DNA of 12,678 nucleotides, taken from positions 1-12,678 of the forward strand of contig JAIPFU010000034.1 of the NCBI GenBank assembly GCA_021736505.1. Reading direction: 5' to 3'. This document shows, piece by piece, positions 2,037-12,541 of this stretch. Positions within the stretch are counted from its first letter, which is position 1; every line of letters starts with the position of its first letter. The translations under genes were made by a program, and so were the position numbers. Source of the stretch: Spirochaetia bacterium. GTDB taxonomy: Bacteria; Spirochaetota; Spirochaetia; PWKH01. The notes below the pieces were generated by a model. That model did no database searches. It saw only the letters and a list, made by a program, of their open reading frames with translations, and had not been told where the DNA came from.

Positions 2037-2732
2037 CTATTTTTTATCAACTGAGTTACGATTTCTTTGCCATGCCTTACTGTGATCTTCAACTGCCTTC
2101 ATAGCTTTTTCATAGTCTTTTTCCATTATAGCCTCATGCATAACACGATGTTCTTGATATCCGAGGTCTGAATTAATAGTCGGTGCAAAAAGATCTACTA
2201 CAAAACTATACATATTATCTACAATATTATTGTGAGTCATCTTTCCCATAAGCCTGTGATATTTTAAATCAATTTGGTCTGCTGTCTTACGGTCTTTTGA
2301 GTTGGTTTCTTCTGCTTTATCAAATTCAATCATACACTCAGATAATTTCTGTAAATCCTTCTCGGTAGCGTTTTTAATAATTAGACGAACAACCTCTTTC
2401 TCCATCATTTCTCTAACTTCAATGAGTTCATCATAATCACCATTTGAAACAAGAATTCTAAACAATAGTGGATCAAAAATCTTCTTATTGCTTGCATTGC
2501 TAATGTATGTACCAGCTCCCCTGCGAATATCAATGACTCCGAAAGCTGAAAGAATTTTCATAGCTTCTCGAATTGAGCCACGACTTACTTTAAGCTGCTC
2601 AGCTAAAACCGACTCACTTGGAATCATATCACCAGGACACAATTGCTTTTCAATTAGTAAGCCTTTAATCTTTTCAATAACAGTATCAACTGCAGATATT
2701 CGGGGTTCTTCTATAGCAAATAAGTTTTCCAA
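2037..2732 (-). CDS. GntR-family (FadR/FCD) transcriptional regulator
   Basis: This is a 231-residue one-component regulator. The N-terminal winged helix-turn-helix covers about 13-79, with the GntR signature PSESVLAEQLKVSRGSIREA and the wing GVIDIRRGAGTYI. The C-terminal all-helical FCD ligand domain covers about 95-225. The FCD metal-site residues are present: D155-x3-H159 (DLKYH), H195 (EHRVM) and H217 (EDHSK). It therefore probably uses a metal to bind a carboxylate effector, as FCD proteins commonly do. The start is TTG at 2732, supported by AAGGG at 2739-2743 with 6-nt spacing; no in-frame ATG is better placed. The gene lies downstream of dctM on the same strand with its own promoter in the 177-nt gap. 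The usual role of such a neighbour is control of the adjacent TRAP catabolic operon, probably repression relieved by the substrate (inference). Confidence 0.93.
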   Translation of the reverse strand: MENLFAIEEPRISAVDTVIEKIKGLLIEKQLCPGDMIPSESVLAEQLKVSRGSIREAMKILSAFGVIDIRRGAGTYISNASNKKIFDPLLFRILVSNGDYDELIEVREMMEKEVVRLIIKNATEKDLQKLSECMIEFDKAEETNSKDRKTADQIDLKYHRLMGKMTHNNIVDNMYSFVVDLFAPTINSDLGYQEHRVMHEAIMEKDYEKAMKAVEDHSKAWQRNRNSVDKK

Positions 2733-2750
2733 TGTATGCCCTTCATTTAC

Positions 2751-2769
2751 ACAAATATTTCAAATTTGT
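2751..2769. promoter_or_regulatory. Inverted repeat, possible autoregulatory operator
   Basis: ACAAAT (2751-2756) and ATTTGT (2764-2769) form perfect 6-bp arms around 7 nt. They lie between the predicted promoter and the ribosome site of the GntR gene, a position suited to autoregulation. The motif does not match the palindrome upstream of the TRAP operon beyond CAAA/TTTG. The sequence is AT-rich, so chance is a real alternative. Confidence 0.3.
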
Positions 2770-2787
2770 TCTCATCATGATAGTTTT

Positions 2788-2816
2788 ATAATATTGTATA
2801 TTACTAAAAAAATCAA
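2788..2816 (-). promoter_or_regulatory. Predicted sigma70 promoter of the GntR gene
   Basis: On the minus strand, TTGATT (2816-2811) and TATTAT (2793-2788) are separated by exactly 17 nt. The -10 box is about 55 nt upstream of the TTG start. This gives the regulator its own transcript in addition to any readthrough from dctM. No strong hairpin terminator is seen between dctM and this promoter, only a small CCTG/CAGG stem near 2840-2850 without a T-run. Confidence 0.5.
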
Positions 2817-2909
2817 TTGACTAGCCATGATACGTACATCCTGTTGCAGGAAAAAGCACTTTCATTATTATTAACAATAAAAAACGTAACATCAAAAAAG
2901 CATTACACA

Positions 2910-4193
2910 TTATTTAAAAATAAAGTCTGGAAGAAATGTTGATAGTACTGGAAAAATCGTAATAATAAGAAGCGATACAATCAAAGGAATAAAAAACGGT
3001 ATTATTTTCCTAATAATCCGCTCAACAGGCTCCTTTGCTACATTACTGACCATATAGAGACTCATTCCAACAGGAGGAGTCAGCAACCCAACCATAAGAT
3101 TCAGGACAACAACTATACCTAAATGTATTGGGTCAACACCAGCAGCTATTAAACCGGGATAAATTATTGGGGTCATTACTAAAATCGCTGCTATAGTATC
3201 CATAATCATACCCACAATTAGAAGAATAAAATTAACCATAAGAAGAAGTATAATTGGCTCCTGACTGATAGAATTCAGCAAGCCAGCCATTTGTGCAGGA
3301 ATTTGTTCTACTGTCAAAGTCCATGCAAAGACAGAAGCACATCCTACAACAAAAAGAATAACAGCAGAAGAATGTATAGTCTCCAATGCCATATTAAATA
3401 TCTGCTTGATAGTCAGCTCCCGATACACAACAACACCCAGGAAAATTGAATATCCTACTGTTACAGCAGCTACCTCTGTAGGACTGAACCATCCCGAAAG
3501 CAAACCGCCAATTAGTAATAACGGTGTAATCAATGCAGGAAAAGCTGATTTTATATTCATAAGAATTTCTTTTACGGTATACCTTTCCTTATCTTTTGGG
3601 TAATCTTTTTTATGCGCTGTCCATGTTACAACAACCATAAGAGAAATCGTTATAATAAGTGAAGGTATAATACCAGCGAGAAGTAACTGCACACCAGAAA
3701 CCTCAGCTACAGTAGCAAATATTATCAGAGGAATAGAAGGAGGAAAAATCGGACCAATAGTAGCTGATGCAGCTGTTATGGTTGCGGCATCAGCCCCATC
3801 ATATCCTTGATCCTTCATTGCTTTTATCTCTATATTGCCCAGTCCTCCAATATCTGCTAAAGCTGCTCCTGAAATACCTGAGAAGATAAGACTCGCGAGA
3901 ATATTAACATGAGCTAAGCCTCCTTTCCTATGCCCGACAAGCATCCTTGCAAATACAAATAGCCTATTGGTAATCCCAGAAGTATTCATTAAATTCCCGG
4001 CAAAAATAAATACAGGTACGGCAACAAGGGGAAAAGAATTTAATGCGTTTGGAAGTCTTTGTGCAAGAACAGATATTGGAAATATGTCTGATGTTAAAAA
4101 ATAGATAATGGCTGAAACACCCATTCCAAAAGCTACCGGAATACCCAATAAAGTAAGTAATAAGAAAAGTAATATTATCATTCCTCCAGTCAT
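2910..4193 (-). CDS. dctM: TRAP transporter large permease (DctM-type)
   Basis: This 427-residue, very hydrophobic protein has the normal length and about a dozen membrane segments expected of the 12-TM DctM subunit. The DctM/IT-superfamily landmarks are all present: FSGISGAALADIGGLG (about 104-119), ATIGPIFPPSIPLI (about 144-157), FSPTEVAAV in the middle loop and NLMVGLLTPPVGMSLY near the C terminus. It forms the sodium-coupled translocation channel with DctQ and receives substrate from the periplasmic DctP. The start ATG at 4193 overlaps the dctQ stop by 4 nt (ATGA). A G-rich ribosome site (GGGGGA) lies about 5 nt upstream inside dctQ. The full length is intact with no internal stop. Substrate cannot be read from this subunit. 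Confidence 0.96.
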   Translation of the reverse strand: MTGGMIILLFLLLTLLGIPVAFGMGVSAIIYFLTSDIFPISVLAQRLPNALNSFPLVAVPVFIFAGNLMNTSGITNRLFVFARMLVGHRKGGLAHVNILASLIFSGISGAALADIGGLGNIEIKAMKDQGYDGADAATITAASATIGPIFPPSIPLIIFATVAEVSGVQLLLAGIIPSLIITISLMVVVTWTAHKKDYPKDKERYTVKEILMNIKSAFPALITPLLLIGGLLSGWFSPTEVAAVTVGYSIFLGVVVYRELTIKQIFNMALETIHSSAVILFVVGCASVFAWTLTVEQIPAQMAGLLNSISQEPIILLLMVNFILLIVGMIMDTIAAILVMTPIIYPGLIAAGVDPIHLGIVVVLNLMVGLLTPPVGMSLYMVSNVAKEPVERIIRKIIPFFIPLIVSLLIITIFPVLSTFLPDFIFK

Positions 4194-4654
4194 TCTTTCC
4201 CCCAGAAACGTAGTATAGTGATTAATTTACATATTCCGACAACAACTCCTGTAAATGCTCCAATGAGTCCGGCAAGAAAGAACCACTGATTCTGCATATT
4301 CAAAGAAGGAGTACAAACATCACCCATATATCTGATAAAATTATAATGGCTGAAAATATAAAACACATAAAAAAAAGTAATGCATAAAACAGAAAAGAGC
4401 TTCGTGAATTTATTATACTTTGAAGGAACAAAAGTTTTCACAAAATAATCTAATTTAACATGTTCATCCCTGCTGAAAATGACAGGGGACAGAATTAGAA
4501 CCATAGAAAGTAGTAAATATCTTGCCATCTCCTCAGACCAAACAAAACCCCAGCCCAAACTATTTCTTAGAATCACCTGCACAATTATAAGCAAAGAAAG
4601 CAGTATTAGAATTATGGCAGATATATGCTCAAAAAAACTTAAGATCTTCTTCAT
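4190..4654 (-). CDS. dctQ: TRAP transporter small permease (DctQ-type)
   Basis: This protein of about 154 residues has four predicted membrane helices, as in DctQ. The conserved DctQ motif WSEEMARYLL follows the first helix, and DEHVKLDYF follows the second. It pairs with DctM to form the membrane part of a TRAP transporter. Two starts are possible. The ATG at 4663 (adding MRT) has AAGGA (4669-4665) only 1 nt upstream. The ATG at 4654 has the same site at 10 nt, so 4654 is preferred. The stop overlaps the dctM start by 4 nt. The 100-nt gap to dctP holds a terminator-like hairpin, so the permease genes are probably expressed below the binding protein. Confidence 0.94.
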   Translation of the reverse strand: MKKILSFFEHISAIILILLSLLIIVQVILRNSLGWGFVWSEEMARYLLLSMVLILSPVIFSRDEHVKLDYFVKTFVPSKYNKFTKLFSVLCITFFYVFYIFSHYNFIRYMGDVCTPSLNMQNQWFFLAGLIGAFTGVVVGICKLITILRFWGKE

Positions 4655-4682
4655 TGTTCTCATATCCTTATCAGTGACTACT

Positions 4683-4727
4683 AAAAAACAGCCCCAAATG
4701 TGTTAACAAATACATTGGAGCTGTTTT
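4683..4727 (-). terminator. Intra-operon hairpin/attenuator between dctP and dctQ
   Basis: Read on the minus strand downstream of dctP, AAAACAGC (4727-4720) pairs with GCTGTTTT (4692-4685). The stem continues through imperfect CC/GG, AA/TT and TGT/ACA pairs. A U-tract of six follows (4688-4683, partly paired). It has the form of an intrinsic terminator but lies inside an otherwise continuous TRAP operon. The likely effect is partial termination, giving more DctP than DctQM, and/or protection of the dctP mRNA 3' end. Confidence 0.7.
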
Positions 4728-4766
4728 CAGTTTTTTAACACATCATTCTAATATTATTTTCAGTTA

Positions 4767-5777
4767 CTATTCTATCTGAGAAATAATATCATACATATCA
4801 CCGTACATATCACTGAAATTTTGATTCACATATTCTTTTACACGGCTTCTGAATTTCTCAACCTGCAGGCCCTCAGATTCTGTAATAACTGTCATACCAG
4901 CATCCTTAAGTAATTCAATGTTCTCCGCCTCACCAAGCTTCGTAAGATTAGTAGCCCATTCTGCTGTCTCTTCTGCTGCTTCCATTATCTGATCTCTCTG
5001 TTCCTGAGTTAAACTCTTCCATACGCTTTCATTAGCAACAACACATTCAGCACCCATGATATGACCAGTAAGCATCATATGAGACTGAACATCCTGCATA
5101 TTATTCGAATAAATAGTGTTCGGCGGATTTTCCTGTCCATCAGCAGTACCTGTTGCTAACGCAGTTGGTAGTTCTGCAAAATCTATTGGAGTAGCTATAG
5201 CTCCCATACCATTAACTGCAGCCATATATATTGGAAAAGGAATTGCACGAATTTTCATTCCCTTCAAATCAGCTGGTTCATAGACAGCCTCATTCGCTGT
5301 CAACTGGCGAGTACCAAAGTAAAAATTGTATATATTCCTTACATTCCTTTCATCTATAAGACCTTTATTCAGTTTCTGCATAATAGGAGAATCCACATCG
5401 GTAACGCGCATAAGATGATCTACACTCTTGTACAGATACGGTGTATCAAGAACCGCATAGTCAGAGTATAATGATCCAATACCTGCCATAGTATTGTGGT
5501 GAAATGCTACAGTACCATTGGAAACCATTTCTGCCATTTCCTGCAGTGTTCCAAGCTGAGATGAAGGATATACTTTAATGACAACTGAACCATTTGTCTT
5601 CTCTTTTACTAGATCAGCAAAATAAACAGCCTGCTTTCCAGCAACACTTCCAGGTGCATTCATGTGGGCATAAATCAGCTGACTTTTCGATTTAGAACCG
5701 CTCTCATTCTGTCCTTCAGCAAAAATACTTCCTGCAGTTAAACAAAGCAGCAGTACAGCAATAACAACCTTTTTCAT
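4767..5777 (-). CDS. dctP: TRAP transporter substrate-binding protein (DctP-type)
   Basis: This 336-residue periplasmic binding protein has a signal peptide at 1-20 (MKKVVIAVLLLCLTAGSIFA) cleaved before EGQNES; there is no lipobox Cys. The mature part has the DctP fold markers: FADLVKEKTNGSVVIKVYPS with SSQLGTLQEMAEMV (about 53-86), DLKGMKIRAIP, in which R177 is the conserved Arg that salt-bridges a substrate carboxylate, and TADGQENPPNTIY (about 211-223). The ligand is therefore expected to be an organic acid (family knowledge); which one is not visible. The ATG at 5777 has AAGGAG at 5791-5786 with 8-nt spacing, and the ribosome site lies inside the end of the transketolase C gene. The two genes are 2 nt apart, so transport and catabolism are tightly coupled. 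Confidence 0.96.
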   Translation of the reverse strand: MKKVVIAVLLLCLTAGSIFAEGQNESGSKSKSQLIYAHMNAPGSVAGKQAVYFADLVKEKTNGSVVIKVYPSSQLGTLQEMAEMVSNGTVAFHHNTMAGIGSLYSDYAVLDTPYLYKSVDHLMRVTDVDSPIMQKLNKGLIDERNVRNIYNFYFGTRQLTANEAVYEPADLKGMKIRAIPFPIYMAAVNGMGAIATPIDFAELPTALATGTADGQENPPNTIYSNNMQDVQSHMMLTGHIMGAECVVANESVWKSLTQEQRDQIMEAAEETAEWATNLTKLGEAENIELLKDAGMTVITESEGLQVEKFRSRVKEYVNQNFSDMYGDMYDIISQIE

Positions 5778-5779
5778 AA

Positions 5780-6757
5780 TTACAACTCCTTATATATTTT
5801 TTTATTTTCTAAGGCTTTTTTAGCCTTTTTCACAATTTCTTCTGCAGTGATGCCGTATTTTTGGAACAATTCTTCCGATGTGCCGGATTCAGGAAAAACA
5901 TCCTGTATACCGACCATTTGCATCGGAACATTCGGCCCCTGCACATTCACTTCAGCAACTGCGCTGCCAAGACCTCCTATAACCGTATGGTCTTCAACAG
6001 TAACAACCGCAGAAGCTGTATTCAATAAATTTATTAGTTCTTCAACAGGTAATGGTTTCAAAGTAGAAATTTCAACAGCTTTCACTTTATAACCAAGATT
6101 TTTCAGCATAATACAAGCTTTCTCCAGTATAGGCAAAACAAAGCCGCACCCAACTAGGAGTATTTCATCCCCATAATCCTTTAGTTCCCTAATTTTATGA
6201 AATTCAAATGGGGTGGAGATATCATGATACAATGGTTCTTTACCACTTCCTGTTCGTACATAAACAGGACCAGGAATATCTACTGCCTTTAAAATTGCTT
6301 TTTTTACTTGTCCAGCATCAGAAGGTACCAGGATAGTCATACCTGGCATTGTTCGAAGAATACCAATATCCTCACACCCTTGGTGTGAGACACCTTCTCG
6401 TTCACCTGACCCCATCCCGCCATTTGCTCCTACAATAACCATATCTAAATTTGAATAACATACAATGGAACGCAACTGCTCACAAGCACGCATCGAAGCA
6501 AATACGGAATATGTAACATAGATAGGCTTAATACCAGTTGAAGAAAGTCCTGCAGAACAATCTACAGCAGCCTGTTCCGAAATACCCATTTCAATAACTC
6601 TATCAGGATATTTTTTTGCAAAATCCTGCGCTTTAATTACTCCTACTGAATCGCTTGAGACTAAGACTACTGATTCATCCCTCTCTGCAATTTCCAGCAA
6701 TGCATCAGTTACAGCTCTTCTGCTGCTTGTGTTCACATTCGCTTTTAAGCTCTTCAT
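5780..6757 (-). CDS. Transketolase, C-terminal subunit (split enzyme)
   Basis: This 325-residue protein has the pyrimidine-binding (Pyr) and C-terminal domains of transketolase. The Pyr domain contains VIEMGISEQ, with E61 as the conserved Glu that activates the thiamine diphosphate aminopyrimidine. It then has GANGGMGSGEREGVSHQGCEDIG (about 110-132), the conserved His loop of this subfamily, and LRTMPGMTILVPSDAGQ. The C-terminal domain (about 195-315) has VEDHTVIGGLGSAVAE. With the N-terminal half encoded directly upstream (4-nt ATGA overlap at 6754-6757), it forms a two-gene transketolase. Such pairs are common in carbohydrate or sugar-acid operons and act on dedicated ketose or ketose-like donors as well as in the pentose phosphate pathway. 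The substrate is not predictable; co-location with a carboxylate TRAP system argues for a specialised role. Confidence 0.95.
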   Translation of the reverse strand: MKSLKANVNTSSRRAVTDALLEIAERDESVVLVSSDSVGVIKAQDFAKKYPDRVIEMGISEQAAVDCSAGLSSTGIKPIYVTYSVFASMRACEQLRSIVCYSNLDMVIVGANGGMGSGEREGVSHQGCEDIGILRTMPGMTILVPSDAGQVKKAILKAVDIPGPVYVRTGSGKEPLYHDISTPFEFHKIRELKDYGDEILLVGCGFVLPILEKACIMLKNLGYKVKAVEISTLKPLPVEELINLLNTASAVVTVEDHTVIGGLGSAVAEVNVQGPNVPMQMVGIQDVFPESGTSEELFQKYGITAEEIVKKAKKALENKKIYKEL

Positions 6758-7587
6758 TCTGCAGCCTCCTGTGATAATATTTCTCGTGCCTGCTTCATCT
6801 GAATTTCAGTGGGAACTCGTTTATGCCAGCTGTTATCATTTTCCATAAATGAAAGTCCCTTTCCTTTTGTCGTTGAGCATATTATCATTGAAGGTTTATT
6901 TTTCTGTTTACCTGCATCCTCAGATGCTGAAATAATTTCCTGAAAGCTATGTCCGTCAATTTCGTATGTATTCCAGCCGAATGCATTGAACTTTTCATAA
7001 AATGACGTAAGGCCACTTATATTCTCTACAGTACCACCACTCTGCCAACAATTATTGTCAAGAAAAACAATCAAATTAGCTAGGCCAAGATGGGACGCTG
7101 CAATAATTGATTCCCACACAATCCCTTCATTTGTTTCTCCATCTCCAAGCACGGTATAGACCTTAGCGCCTAAGCCCTGCATTTGAAGACCTTTAGCCGT
7201 ACCTATCGCAGTAGCTAATCCATTACCCAAACTGCCAGTTGTTGCATCATTTCCAGGGGTTTTTCCCATAAGTGGATGTCCCTGAAGACGAGAATCAATT
7301 TTTCTCAAAGTCCTCAACTCGTCTTTTGCAAAAAAACCTCTATATGCAAGGGCAGCATACAGCATTGAACATGCATGGCCCTTAGATAAAAAGAATCTGT
7401 CACGTTCTTTCATTGAAGGTCTTTCAGGATCAATTCTGAGAATCCCTCCAAAATATAGGGCTGTGATGATTTCAGCGACAGAAAAACAAGGACCTGGATG
7501 ACCATCTTTAACATCATAAACCATTTCCAGCACTTCTAGCCGTAAAGCGGCAGCAGTGCGTTTGAGCTCATTTATGCTATAACTCAT
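6754..7587 (-). CDS. Transketolase, N-terminal subunit (split enzyme)
   Basis: This 277-residue thiamine diphosphate-binding half has the cofactor motif GDG (148-150, LGDGETNEG) extending to NN (178-179, LDNNCWQ). Transketolase His positions are visible: H30 (DGHPG), H71 (LSKGHACSMLY) and H104 (LQGHP). TTGSLGNGLATAIGTAKG (about 117-133) and TKGKGLSFMENDNSWHKR (about 240-257) are also characteristic. Its length is typical for the N subunit of split transketolases. It overlaps the racemase-like gene upstream (ATG at 7587 within the stop, 4 nt) and the C subunit downstream by 4 nt. The three enzymes are therefore translationally coupled and probably made in fixed ratio. All key residues are intact. 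Confidence 0.96.
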   Translation of the reverse strand: MSYSINELKRTAAALRLEVLEMVYDVKDGHPGPCFSVAEIITALYFGGILRIDPERPSMKERDRFFLSKGHACSMLYAALAYRGFFAKDELRTLRKIDSRLQGHPLMGKTPGNDATTGSLGNGLATAIGTAKGLQMQGLGAKVYTVLGDGETNEGIVWESIIAASHLGLANLIVFLDNNCWQSGGTVENISGLTSFYEKFNAFGWNTYEIDGHSFQEIISASEDAGKQKNKPSMIICSTTKGKGLSFMENDNSWHKRVPTEIQMKQAREILSQEAAE

Positions 7588-8246
7588 ACATCCCCCTGTA
7601 GATAGGAAGCAAGAGAATCCATTCCTGATTCTGGACTTGTAAGCACAGGTTTTCCAATTCTTTCAGAAAGCTGCTCCTTCATACGAGCCATAGAACCCTG
7701 CGCCAAGAGAAAAACATCTGCTTTATCTTTCAGTTTTTCTGCTGCTTGTAAAATCTTAGCATCATGAATATCCTCTCTACCTTCGCCTAATGCCTGAAAA
7801 GCACCATCCGCAAGTCCATTCATAACTTCTACTGAACGATTCTTTTTCTCTGCAGTTTTTTCAACAAGACGTATAGTAGGTTCCAGTGTTGTTGGGAGAG
7901 TTGCAATTACCCCAATTCGCGAATATCCTAAAACAGCTGCTTCTGCCATTGGAGCATCTATTCTGAGAATTGGTATATCAAGAAAAGGTTGTATTAAATC
8001 AACTGATTCGCCTACCGAAGAGCACGTCTCCAAGATAACTGCTGAATGAGCTTCTCTAGCCTCTCTGCAATAAGCATATATTTTTCTTAGAACAGCATCT
8101 CCCATTTTTCCTTCTTTAATAACTGCTGCAATAAGATTATCATCCAATACATTTATCAATGTATGTTCAGGAAATCTTTGTGAAAAATAAACACTCAAGG
8201 GTTTTACTAGAGCAGCGCCGGTATATATTGCTGTAACTGTAGCCAA
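7584..8246 (-). CDS. Asp/Glu/hydantoin racemase-superfamily protein, single-Cys type
   Basis: This 220-residue protein has the two-domain racemase fold. The N-terminal catalytic Cys is present (C75 in VILETCSSVGE) and IGVIATLPTTLEPT (111-124) marks the second lobe. The second catalytic Cys of true racemases is expected in the LLxC motif after the 'DVFLLA' strand. Here the segment reads DVFLLAQGSMARM, with Q183-G184-S185 and no Cys. A two-base racemization is therefore unlikely. Single-Cys relatives such as arylmalonate decarboxylase do proton-transfer, decarboxylation or isomerase chemistry. It heads the operon, so its reaction may be tied closely to the imported acid. The start is TTG at 8246 with a strong AGGAGGA at 8257-8251. 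No in-frame ATG exists near it. The family is secure; the reaction is unknown. Confidence 0.85.
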   Translation of the reverse strand: MATVTAIYTGAALVKPLSVYFSQRFPEHTLINVLDDNLIAAVIKEGKMGDAVLRKIYAYCREAREAHSAVILETCSSVGESVDLIQPFLDIPILRIDAPMAEAAVLGYSRIGVIATLPTTLEPTIRLVEKTAEKKNRSVEVMNGLADGAFQALGEGREDIHDAKILQAAEKLKDKADVFLLAQGSMARMKEQLSERIGKPVLTSPESGMDSLASYLQGDV

Positions 8247-8266
8247 AAAATCCTCCTATACAATTT

Positions 8267-8288
8267 AAACATCAAACGTTTGATGTTT
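8267..8288. promoter_or_regulatory. Perfect 22-bp palindrome, operator of TRAP/transketolase operon
   Basis: Positions 8267-8288 read identically on both strands. The centre is between C8277 and G8278 and the core is ATCAAACGTTTGAT. It starts inside the predicted -10 box and covers the likely transcription start, about 20 nt upstream of the first gene. That position blocks initiation when occupied. The even symmetry with a central CG resembles LacI-family operators, though the only regulator in the window is GntR/FCD. A 22-bp perfect palindrome is very unlikely by chance. Confidence 0.8.
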
Positions 8289-8646: not shown

Positions 8647-8709
8647 GAAATTTTTTTATCTGATAAGCAAATTCTTTGAAACAAAAACGCTAAATATTTG
8701 GAGGATAGC

Positions 8710-9669
8710 ATGAATATTGTAATTCTTGACGGCTATACGGAAAACCCTGGGGATTTATCCTGGGAAGGATTCGAAGCATTGGGGAATCTCACAGTATATG
8801 ACCGCACTCCCGAAAAACAAATCGTTGAACGGATTGCGGATGCTGAGATTGTCATAACTAACAAAGTACCCCTGACTGCTGAAACCATGGCTGCTTGCCC
8901 GAAAATAAAGTACATCGGAGTTCTTGCCACGGGTTTCAATGTTGTCGATATCCAAGCGGCTAAAGAGCGGGGAATTCCTGTGACAAATATACCGACTTAC
9001 GGTACTGCAGCGGTAGCCCAGTTTGCCATGGCTCTCCTGCTGGAAATCTGTCATCACATTTGGCCCCACAGTGAAACAGTCCATCAGGGGAAATGGACAA
9101 AAAGTCCCGATTTCTGCTACTGGGATTACCCGCTCATCGAGCTTGACGGAAAAACCATGGGAATAATTGGCCTTGGACGTATCGGAAAAAAGACGGCACA
9201 GATAGCAGCCGGCTTCGGCATGAATATCCTCGCCTATGATGCATATCACGATAAGGCCTGGGAAAATGACATTCGCAGATATGCAGAATTGGATGAGCTG
9301 CTGGAAAAATCGGATGTGATCTCACTTCATGCACCGCTTCTTCCGGATACCGAAGGCATCATCAATAAAAACAGCATTGCAAAAATGAAAGACGGAGTGA
9401 TCATTCTGAATAATTCAAGGGGCCCCTTGATTGTGGAAGAGGACCTCAGGGATGCCCTGAACTCGGGGAAAGTGTATGCCGCAGGCTTAGATGTCGTTTC
9501 CACGGAACCCATACGGGAAGACAATCCCCTGCTGGAAGCAAAAAACTGCATCATCACCCCGCACATCTCCTGGGCGCCGAAGGAATCTCGACAGCGTCTC
9601 ATGAATATAGCGGTGGATAACTTGAAGGCATATCTTGATGGGAAACTAATCAACACAGTCAATATGTAA
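8710..9669 (+). CDS. D-2-hydroxyacid dehydrogenase (glycerate/hydroxypyruvate reductase-like)
   Basis: This 319-residue NAD(P)-dependent oxidoreductase interconverts a 2-keto acid and a D-2-hydroxy acid. The Rossmann domain begins at LDGKTMGIIGLGRIGKKTAQ (145-164), with G154-x-G156-x2-G159. Asp177 at the end of the second strand (ILAYD) favours NADH. The catalytic triad is intact: R237 (NNSRGPL), E266 (VVSTEPI) and H285 (ITPHISWAP). The region LATGFNVVDIQAAKERGIPVTN matches the glycerate dehydrogenase/hydroxypyruvate reductase branch, so glyoxylate or hydroxypyruvate-type substrates are likely (inference). The start at 8710 is chosen because GGAGGA (8700-8705) lies 4-5 nt upstream; an in-frame TTG at 8698 overlaps that site. 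It is divergent from the TRAP operon and ends in a strong terminator, so it is a single-gene unit. Confidence 0.93.
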   Translation: MNIVILDGYTENPGDLSWEGFEALGNLTVYDRTPEKQIVERIADAEIVITNKVPLTAETMAACPKIKYIGVLATGFNVVDIQAAKERGIPVTNIPTYGTAAVAQFAMALLLEICHHIWPHSETVHQGKWTKSPDFCYWDYPLIELDGKTMGIIGLGRIGKKTAQIAAGFGMNILAYDAYHDKAWENDIRRYAELDELLEKSDVISLHAPLLPDTEGIINKNSIAKMKDGVIILNNSRGPLIVEEDLRDALNSGKVYAAGLDVVSTEPIREDNPLLEAKNCIITPHISWAPKESRQRLMNIAVDNLKAYLDGKLINTVNM

Positions 9670-12122: not shown

Positions 12123-12129
12123 CAAATCC

Positions 12130-12541
12130 AACCAACAACCTAACCAACGAACCAACGAACCAACAAACCAACAAACCAACAAACCAACGAACCAACGAAC
12201 CAACGAACCAACGAACCAACTAACCAACCAACCAACAACCCAACCAACAACCCAACCAACCAACAACCCAACCAACAACCCAACGAACCAACAAACCAAC
12301 CAACCAACCAACCAACTAACCAACCAACCAACCAACCAACCAACCAACCAACCAACCAACCAACTAACCAACCAACGAACCAACTAACCAACTAACCAAC
12401 TAACCAACGAACCAACTACCCAACCAACCAACTAACTAACCAACCAACCAACTAACCAACTAACCAACTAACCAACGAACCAACTAACCAACTACCCAAC
12501 TACCCAACGAACCAACAAACTAACCAACCAACCAACCAACT
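12130..12541. repeat. AACN tetranucleotide array, 103 in-register units
   Basis: From 12130 to 12541 the sequence is an unbroken series of 4-nt units in constant phase. Position 1 is always A and position 3 always C. Position 2 is A except in a few ACCC/ACCT units. Position 4 varies (C most often, alternating with G, A or T in blocks such as AACC-AACG, AACC-AACA, AACC-AACT). The longest pure run is eleven AACC at 12318-12361. No net indel occurs over 412 bp. Translation gives QPTN-type repeats on the plus strand and GWLV-type on the minus strand, with stops arising at AACT-AACC. No ribosome site or domain supports coding, so it is annotated as repeat. The minus strand is GGTT-rich and could form two-layer G-quadruplexes. 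Confidence 0.95.

Follow-up and report, generated by a model that had tools for sequence, protein, structure and literature searches.

Which compound is imported and broken down by an operon that couples a TRAP transporter to a split transketolase and a protein of the racemase fold? This question is posed by a 12,678-nucleotide stretch of Spirochaetia bacterium DNA (contig JAIPFU010000034.1; hereafter the window, meaning the whole stretch analysed), in which six tightly spaced minus-strand genes occur in the order RAC (racemase-fold enzyme), TK-N and TK-C (transketolase subunits), DctP, DctQ and DctM (transporter), followed by the gene for a GntR/FCD regulator. The operon very probably serves to degrade a branched sugar acid of plant origin. 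Genomic linkage in relatives of the window makes aceric acid (3-C-carboxy-5-deoxy-L-xylose), a rare, acidic and branched signature sugar of the plant-wall pectin rhamnogalacturonan II (RG-II), the best-supported candidate substrate. We lean, if only slightly, towards an operon that imports aceric acid through the TRAP transporter and degrades it by RAC isomerisation and cleavage by transketolase in unphosphorylated form, a scheme in which the substrate, the RAC reaction, the transketolase substrate and the operator function are all predicted. No catabolic pathway for this sugar was found in the literature searched, including passages of PMC12168206, PMC6353982 and PMC7939467.

Conservation of the operon in other genomes

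The genes, strand, spacing, hairpin-containing gap and same-strand regulator described in the initial annotation were all reproduced from reading frames and Pfam matches. That annotation had also called for a genome neighbourhood search for co-occurring racemase, transketolase and TRAP genes, and the gene order was indeed found to recur. A single scan of genome contigs returned 474 RAC relatives, the best 80 loci of which were fetched and divided by score and distance limits into transketolase (10), RuBisCO-like (39), BKACE and/or kinase (14), MFS transporter only (6) and other (11) classes. One or both transketolase halves were located beside RAC in 10 of the 80 loci (L006, L007, L009, L012, L014, L030, L036, L059, L064 and L071), 5 of them with TRAP genes; L014 and L036 carry a single half, at contig ends, and L008, although classed as other, has a transketolase fragment. 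The RAC-TK-TK-DctPQM operon was also seen in L007, L012, L030, L064 and L071, and because the identical gene order is found in other genomes, the arrangement in the window is taken to be beyond chance. Downstream of DctM these five loci share a conserved transaldolase-like gene and a small cupin gene, neither of which accompanies the window copy. Identities between L012 and the window are 52% for RAC, 54% for TK-N, 56% for TK-C, 62% for DctP and 72% for DctM, and in a tree of 51 of the RACs the L012 protein was placed within the window's own clade (support 99/95).

The possibility that this gene order had already been assigned to a known substrate was considered. No such assignment was found in the literature searched, and no NCBIfam equivalog scored above its cut-off for RAC, TK-N or TK-C. 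The same literature contained no paper uniting a racemase and transketolase with either a four-carbon acid sugar kinase or a TRAP genome neighbourhood, and none on apionate or apulose together with transketolase; the racemase family combined with rhamnogalacturonan gave only a plant-pathogen genome paper.

Linkage of RAC to aceric acid hydrolases

In L012, a GH127 gene comes immediately after the transketolase-TRAP operon, and its product scored 802 bits against the NCBIfam model for aceric acid hydrolase. Its best solved relative (596 bits, the next scoring 352) is BT_1003, which we take to be an aceric acid hydrolase, the NCBIfam label being the source in hand for that identity. In two GH127 trees, the L012 protein and a Paenibacillus abyssi GH127 encoded about 13 kb from RAC joined the aceric acid hydrolases (94/100 in the first tree, 100/99 in the second) and stood apart from the other GH127 proteins of the same two genomes; a partial GH127 from the genome of L064 was also placed in this clade in the second tree. 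Directly upstream of RAC, L017 encodes an aceric acid hydrolase of 1019 bits, above the cut-off, and L052 encodes one that is 76% identical to it. L018, which belongs with L052 to the contigs of one assembly, begins with a 103-residue GH127 end piece that could not be assigned to a kind. Relatives of the BT_1003-type hydrolase adjoin RAC in L012, L017 and L052 and are absent from the window itself, for which they supply a substrate link only.

Co-occurrence of the two genes was then considered across whole genomes, with no correction for kinship in any of the p values. Among 150 genomes of the genus of G041 (Prevotella-type), full-length hydrolase matches were bimodal, 41 genomes scoring at least 880 bits and the next 498 among the matches listed, beyond which further contig-end pieces are possible. 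A 290-residue contig-end piece (412 bits) in G075, a genome without RAC, fell in the aceric clade and brought the hydrolase genomes to 42. One of the 14 RAC matches (G115; 38 residues, 28 bits) was set aside as not clearly RAC, leaving 13 clear RAC genomes, 12 with a full-length gene and one (G124) with a partial gene containing a stop. The hydrolase was present in all 13, versus 29 of the 137 others (p = 1.4e-8), and in 11/11 when the two seed genomes were omitted (p = 1.8e-7); a count using 28/137 and treating G115 as a counterexample gave p = 1.1e-7. Within the order of G038 (247 genomes), RAC was found in 4 genomes (E up to 1e-50) and the hydrolase in 12 (E up to 1e-180), the latter accompanying RAC in 4/4 versus 8/243, or 3/3 without the seed (p = 7e-5). 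A set of 296 spirochaete genomes, in which the other RAC-transketolase genomes were not included, yielded a single genome, G007, with both a strong RAC match (347 bits) and an aceric-type GH127 (802 bits), the two genes being separated by 7 kb; eight other genomes had weaker RAC-family matches (119-197 bits). Many genomes carry the hydrolase but no RAC (29 of 42 in the genus of G041 and 8 of 12 in the order of G038), so that RAC would not be indispensable to RG-II degraders.

A second hydrolase type, c5 (L070:8213-9940 and relatives), is frequently encoded immediately upstream of RAC in Paenibacillus loci and, in L059, ahead of the RAC-transketolase genes. The L070 protein had no Pfam or NCBIfam match and only chance-level PDB sequence matches (E 0.55). 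Profile comparison with aceric acid hydrolases gave 87% probability over the metal/Cys region, and the L059 protein matched Pfam GH127 at 19.4 bits, under the cut-off of 24.9. The 21 best Foldseek matches of the c5 model (mean pLDDT 74, TM about 0.5) were all GH127/GH146 proteins, BT_1003 included (E 1e-12 to 2e-11), with the next fold at 6e-5. Membership of the GH127 family is supported by this predicted structure, specificity is not, and c5 is possibly a new type of aceric acid hydrolase. It was located no more than 10 kb from RAC in 36 of the 80 loci (RuBisCO-like 32, BKACE/kinase 2, transketolase 1, other 1). In the RAC tree, the two Paenibacillus BKACE variants grouped as sisters of RuBisCO-like variants (support 100/99), and the transketolase variant of L059 joined other RuBisCO-like variants (96/88, long branch). 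The same type of release enzyme and the same RAC, combined with exchangeable downstream modules, would be expected if RAC performs a shared first step on one substrate. Also present in Paenibacillus RAC loci is a protein of about 1100 residues (L077:3094-6414 and its cluster of 10), of which the one member tested had no Pfam, NCBIfam or PDB sequence match; it is a possible new RG-II enzyme.

Active site of RAC

RAC (positions 8246-7584, minus strand) has a TTG start with AGGAGG upstream and matched Pfam Asp_Glu_race at 62.5 bits (cut-off 31; E = 6e-17), and its AlphaFold model (pLDDT 95) was matched by Foldseek to glutamate, aspartate and hydantoin racemases with probability 1.00. The original description of the protein as racemase-like is consequently sound for the fold, but not for the active site. 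C75 aligns to Cys82 of aspartate racemase 1jfl and Q183 to the second Cys position of allantoin racemase, both of these cysteines being presumed catalytic, and C75 and Gln183 were invariant in 25 of 25 aligned RAC proteins, none of which has the two-Cys site. Since the second Cys site is Gln183, RAC was not classed as a racemase, and a two-base racemase mechanism appears unlikely from the alignment. RAC thus shares the fold and the first Cys position with the superfamily (aspartate/glutamate racemase, hydantoin/allantoin racemase and arylmalonate decarboxylase, AMDase), and is unlike the racemases at the second. AMDase likewise operates with a single Cys, although it keeps the other one, the RAC pattern being its mirror image, and it therefore provides a precedent for one-Cys enolate chemistry in a racemase fold. 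According to PMC6563808, AMDase with altered catalytic cysteines gave variants of opposite enantioselectivity.

Because RAC is the sole enzyme common to all variants of the locus, and aldose-ketose isomerisation is the step that every variant needs, RAC was assigned by elimination as the proposed aceric acid aldose-ketose (carbonyl-shift) isomerase, probably a new enzymatic role for the racemase fold. It is quite conceivable, though we would stop short of calling it probable, that RAC is the founder of a group of aldose-ketose isomerases that have the Asp/Glu racemase fold and work with a single Cys and no cofactor, and that it acts on aceric acid and feeds three interchangeable ends, namely a split transketolase with carboxylate for phosphate, a kinase with a RuBisCO-like decarboxylase, and a kinase with BKACE. 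A total of 2614 proteins matched RAC, which marks the family as a large one; among those listed, the nearest 30 share 49-65% identity and are partly spirochaetal. The genome of L064 carries a second, weaker RAC-family gene (G039:C216:5361-6014; 144 bits), perhaps a paralogue for another acid.

An altered phosphate site in the split transketolase

TK-N (7587-6754, minus strand; Transketolase_N, PF00456, 5e-52) is the N-terminal, ThDP-binding subunit, and TK-C (6757-5780, minus strand; Transket_pyr, PF02779, 2e-31; Transketolase_C, PF02780, 2e-20) carries the Pyr and C domains, with E61 at the position of human E366, which we take to be catalytic. Among solved structures, the split transketolase from Carboxydothermus hydrogenoformans (6yaj, 220 bits), likewise encoded on two genes, is closest to TK-C in sequence. 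Unlike 6yaj, the RAC-adjacent TK-C proteins have a longer, Arg-bearing loop and lack the usual phosphate-binding Ser, His and Arg. When the human residues R318, S345, H416 and R474, presumably those that bind phosphate, were mapped onto the window protein, R318 was kept (R13) and the others were replaced (V40, N112 and S171, respectively), so that the canonical phosphate site is not intact.

These differences were found to follow proximity to RAC in an alignment of 17 TK-C proteins, 10 of which adjoin RAC and 7 of which sit farther from it within the same fetched loci. A loop of the form GANGG....G[EN]REG, one residue longer and bearing an Arg, was present in 10/10 RAC-adjacent proteins and 0/7 others; in the window it contains Arg120-Glu121 (GANGGMGSGEREG). 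The phosphate-site Ser is Val or Ile in all 9 RAC-adjacent proteins covering the position and Ser in 7/7 others, and the phosphate-site Arg is Ser or Asn in 9 of the 9 covering it and Arg in 7/7 others. At the His position, Asn was found in 10/10, the others having His once and Ser six times. At this site the carboxylate of an unphosphorylated donor may take the place of phosphate. The initial annotation had flagged the missing kinase: the absence was upheld, and it is likely accounted for by the dropped phosphate ligands and the Arg gained by TK-C, which fit a carboxylated, unphosphorylated donor. An acceptor phosphate, too, would have to use this altered site.

TRAP transporter, regulator and candidate operator

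The transporter is complete, comprising a solute-binding protein with the carboxylate-type Arg (DctP, 5777-4767, PF03480, 2e-65) and the small (DctQ, 4663-4190, PF04290, 2e-17) and large (DctM, 4193-2910, PF06808, 7e-115) permease subunits, all on the minus strand. The conserved carboxylate Arg that had been pointed out at R177 of DctP was confirmed by alignment, where it falls in the expected DLKGMKIRA segment. Solved structures were also considered as a guide to the ligand, and the best relative, 4o8m, was too distant to fix it (141 bits). The RAC/TK-N, TK-N/TK-C and DctQ/DctM pairs overlap by 4 nt, TK-C and DctP are separated by 2 nt, DctP and DctQ by 103 nt, and DctM and the regulator gene by 177 nt. 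The DctP-DctQ gap (4664-4766, minus strand) contains a hairpin (minimum free energy -24.2 kcal/mol, z -2.64; 2/200 shuffles equally good) that is a probable mRNA processing or attenuation stem.

The GntR/FCD regulator (2732-2037, minus strand; TTG start; GntR 9e-16, FCD 3e-15) belongs to the same cluster as regulators in the operons of L006, L007, L012, L030, L064 and L071. A perfect 22-bp palindrome, AAACATCAAACGTTTGATGTTT, lies just upstream of RAC (8267-8288), and the window holds one copy of its 14-bp core (8271-8284), against an expected 0.09. In a comparison covering 10 other loci, related palindromic sites, partly imperfect, were found upstream of RAC in L006, L007, L012 and L030, and only partly similar ones in L064 and L071 (CATATGTATGATG) and in L036 (ACGTCATACGTGTGAT); no related palindrome was seen by eye before RAC in L008, L009 or L059. 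The palindrome is accordingly put forward as a candidate operator of the regulator.

Proposed pathway

Free aceric acid would be taken up by DctPQM, after which RAC would shift the carbonyl from C1 to C2 via an enediol to give the ketose CH3-CHOH-C(OH)(COOH)-CO-CH2OH ('acerulose'). The split transketolase would then move the HOCH2-CO- unit to an acceptor and release 3-hydroxy-2-oxobutanoate, the donor carboxylate, held by the inserted Arg, replacing phosphate and making a kinase unnecessary, and the GntR/FCD protein would control the operon through the palindrome before RAC. By analogy, acerulose should suit transketolase as a donor, cleavage at its tertiary alcohol giving an alpha-keto acid; the corresponding cleavage of apulose 4-phosphate gives dihydroxyacetone phosphate (DHAP). 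The uncharacterised pathway first suggested for the window, in which a sugar acid or a branched hydroxy-keto acid is taken up and cut by the split transketolase, fits these findings, and the guess of a branched hydroxy-keto acid holds well, with substrate and reactions still at the level of prediction. A glycyl-radical enzyme gene lies near the RAC-transketolase genes in L007 (6980-9373; PFL2/diol-dehydratase kind) and L059 (1005-3116), and its product could act on the cleavage product.

In the kinase/RuBisCO-like variant, phosphorylation and decarboxylation to 5-deoxypentulose 1-phosphate would be followed by an aldolase split into DHAP and acetaldehyde. Acerulose would differ from 3-oxo-isoapionate solely by an additional methyl group on its side arm, making it the methyl homologue, and this would explain the OiaK- and OiaX-like partners of RAC. 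For one representative of each, the RuBisCO-like protein best matched OiaX, the 3-oxo-isoapionate-4-phosphate decarboxylase (471 bits), and the DUF1537 kinase best matched OiaK, the 3-oxo-isoapionate kinase (482 bits), the cut-off being 700 in both cases. The scheme resembles the D-apiose and D-apionate pathways in its branched plant-wall sugar, beta-keto tertiary-alcohol intermediate, DUF1537 kinase and alternative ends, a RuBisCO-like decarboxylase or a split transketolase, the latter being represented in the apiose pathway by what we take to be the apulose-4-phosphate transketolase AptAB. It differs from them in its kinase-free transketolase operon, racemase-fold enzyme, TRAP import and GH127-linked relatives, and, compared with the apionate pathway, in that the OiaK/OiaX-like proteins of the relatives are far under the equivalog cut-offs and the window has neither. 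RuBisCO-like proteins of this kind decarboxylate or transcarboxylate 3-oxo-isoapionate-4-phosphate, according to PMC6302742.

Alternative substrates and reactions

Several observations weigh against aceric acid as the substrate. The window contains no glycosidase or hydrolase gene, and no acceptor or route for 3-hydroxy-2-oxobutanoate is encoded within the operon. The L012 GH127 protein falls under its curated cut-off (802 versus 950 bits), and only two of the ten transketolase-type genomes have an aceric-type GH127, those of L012 and L064 (the latter as two contig pieces, 442 and 288 bits). Of the ten, the genome of L059 alone has c5, along with a GH127 match of 294 bits. In the remaining seven, c5 was not found and no GH127 match exceeds 36 bits; they may scavenge free aceric acid through TRAP, have gaps (most being metagenome-assembled) or use a different acid. 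Two spirochaetes without a RAC match, G234 and G337, each have a GH127 in two pieces, with scores of about 666 and 626 bits, respectively, that groups next to the aceric clade but not within it. Because the hydrolase is a general marker of RG-II degraders, its co-occurrence with RAC could, taken alone, point to a different sugar of RG-II. The scheme offers no explanation for BKACE in the third variant, which stands beside the DUF1537 kinase and RAC in L033, L058, L063, L082 and other loci, where beta-keto acid cleavage has no obvious reason on a tertiary alcohol substrate. Finally, RAC relatives 38-49% identical to that of the window adjoin tetronate genes in L003 and L041, so that the wider RAC family extends beyond aceric acid. 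L041 (4917-13441, Accumulibacter) has TRAP, 2-hydroxy-3-oxopropionate reductase-like, SDR, RAC, FucI/sulfoquinovose-isomerase-like and hydroxypyruvate isomerase-like genes in that order, apparently another sugar-acid pathway with a RAC relative.

It is unlikely, in our estimation, that RAC is a decarboxylase like AMDase that removes CO2 from the ketose, leaving transketolase to cleave a 5-deoxy-pentulose into lactaldehyde and a C2 unit. A single-Cys active site in a fold that includes AMDase would suit this role, as would the aldo-keto reductase near the transketolase genes in L007, L009 and L071 and the glycyl-radical enzyme in L007 and L059, which a lactaldehyde/propanediol route would need. 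The operon would, however, be left without an aldose-ketose isomerase, RAC also stands beside OiaX-like RuBisCO-like proteins that are themselves expected to decarboxylate (39/80 loci), and the inserted Arg suggests that the carboxylate is still there at the transketolase step.

A shade less probable is a substrate that is another RG-II or pectin sugar acid, most plausibly one derived from D-apiose (apionate or 3-oxo-isoapionate), with RAC performing a step there. The likeness of its neighbours to OiaX and OiaK speaks for this, although both matches are well under the curated cut-offs. So do an Apiosidase-family gene adjoining RAC in L019 and L023, a weak one upstream in L009, and, in one Paenibacillus subgroup (L038 and L040, for example), a GFO/IDH/MocA oxidoreductase from the 11-protein cluster c15, encoded two genes upstream of RAC. 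Apionate routes require a dehydrogenase and an oxidoisomerase. Outside the c15 subgroup no oxidoreductase is regularly found beside RAC, and none is present in the window's operon, no by-name search for the apiose dehydrogenase and oxidoisomerase having been made. Moreover, RAC is adjoined by aceric-clade GH127 genes in Chloroflexota and a spirochaete, and L039, L043, L062 and L081 have a separate glycerol-kinase-like FGGY kinase, a distant FucI-like protein and a transketolase no more than 10 kb from RAC, which could itself be an apiose route.

We give marginally less weight again to degradation of tetronate-type acids (threonate, erythronate or a branched relative), in which RAC would resemble 2-oxo-tetronate isomerase in shifting a 2-oxo acid's carbonyl. 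The tetronate genes of L003 and L041 are of the OtnK/OtnC/LtnD/OtnI type and are accompanied by dehydrogenases, and the Deinococcus locus L001 has an SDR, a DUF1537 kinase and a class II aldolase. The RACs of the L003/L041 type nevertheless lie outside the window's clade, no dehydrogenase is common to the spirochaete operons, and the GH127 linkage would be left unexplained. An ordinary TRAP operon for dicarboxylates or sugar acids, in which the split transketolase is housekeeping-like and the racemase a mere bystander, is very improbable: every gene comes from a large known family, but the order and overlaps are kept across genomes, the transketolase active site is distinctive and the Cys pattern of RAC is not that of a racemase.

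Other features of the window

A divergent 2-hydroxyacid dehydrogenase gene (8698-9669) and genes for an aldo-keto reductase and a zinc alcohol dehydrogenase lie beside the operon; they were excluded as parts of it, as none adjoins RAC in the other 94 loci above score limits. A tandem array at 12128-12540 comprises 51.6 copies of the 8-bp unit CCAACCAA, its frames reading as long Trp-Leu-Val or Asn-Gln-Pro-Thr repeats. On the plus strand, genes for a PspC-domain protein (213-656) and a DUF4097 'toastrack' protein (919-1824) lie near each other and have no relation to the operon.

Implications for aceric acid catabolism and the racemase fold

The system is likely a variant on apiose-type pathways with a new enzyme role for the racemase fold. 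If the aceric acid assignment is true, the operon would provide candidate genes for the uptake and first steps of aceric acid breakdown, and an example of a transketolase in which a carboxylate takes the role that phosphate has in others. Sugar isomerisation would be added to a fold known for amino-acid racemisation, and many proteins annotated as aspartate/glutamate racemase, among the 2614 relatives matched, may well do something else.

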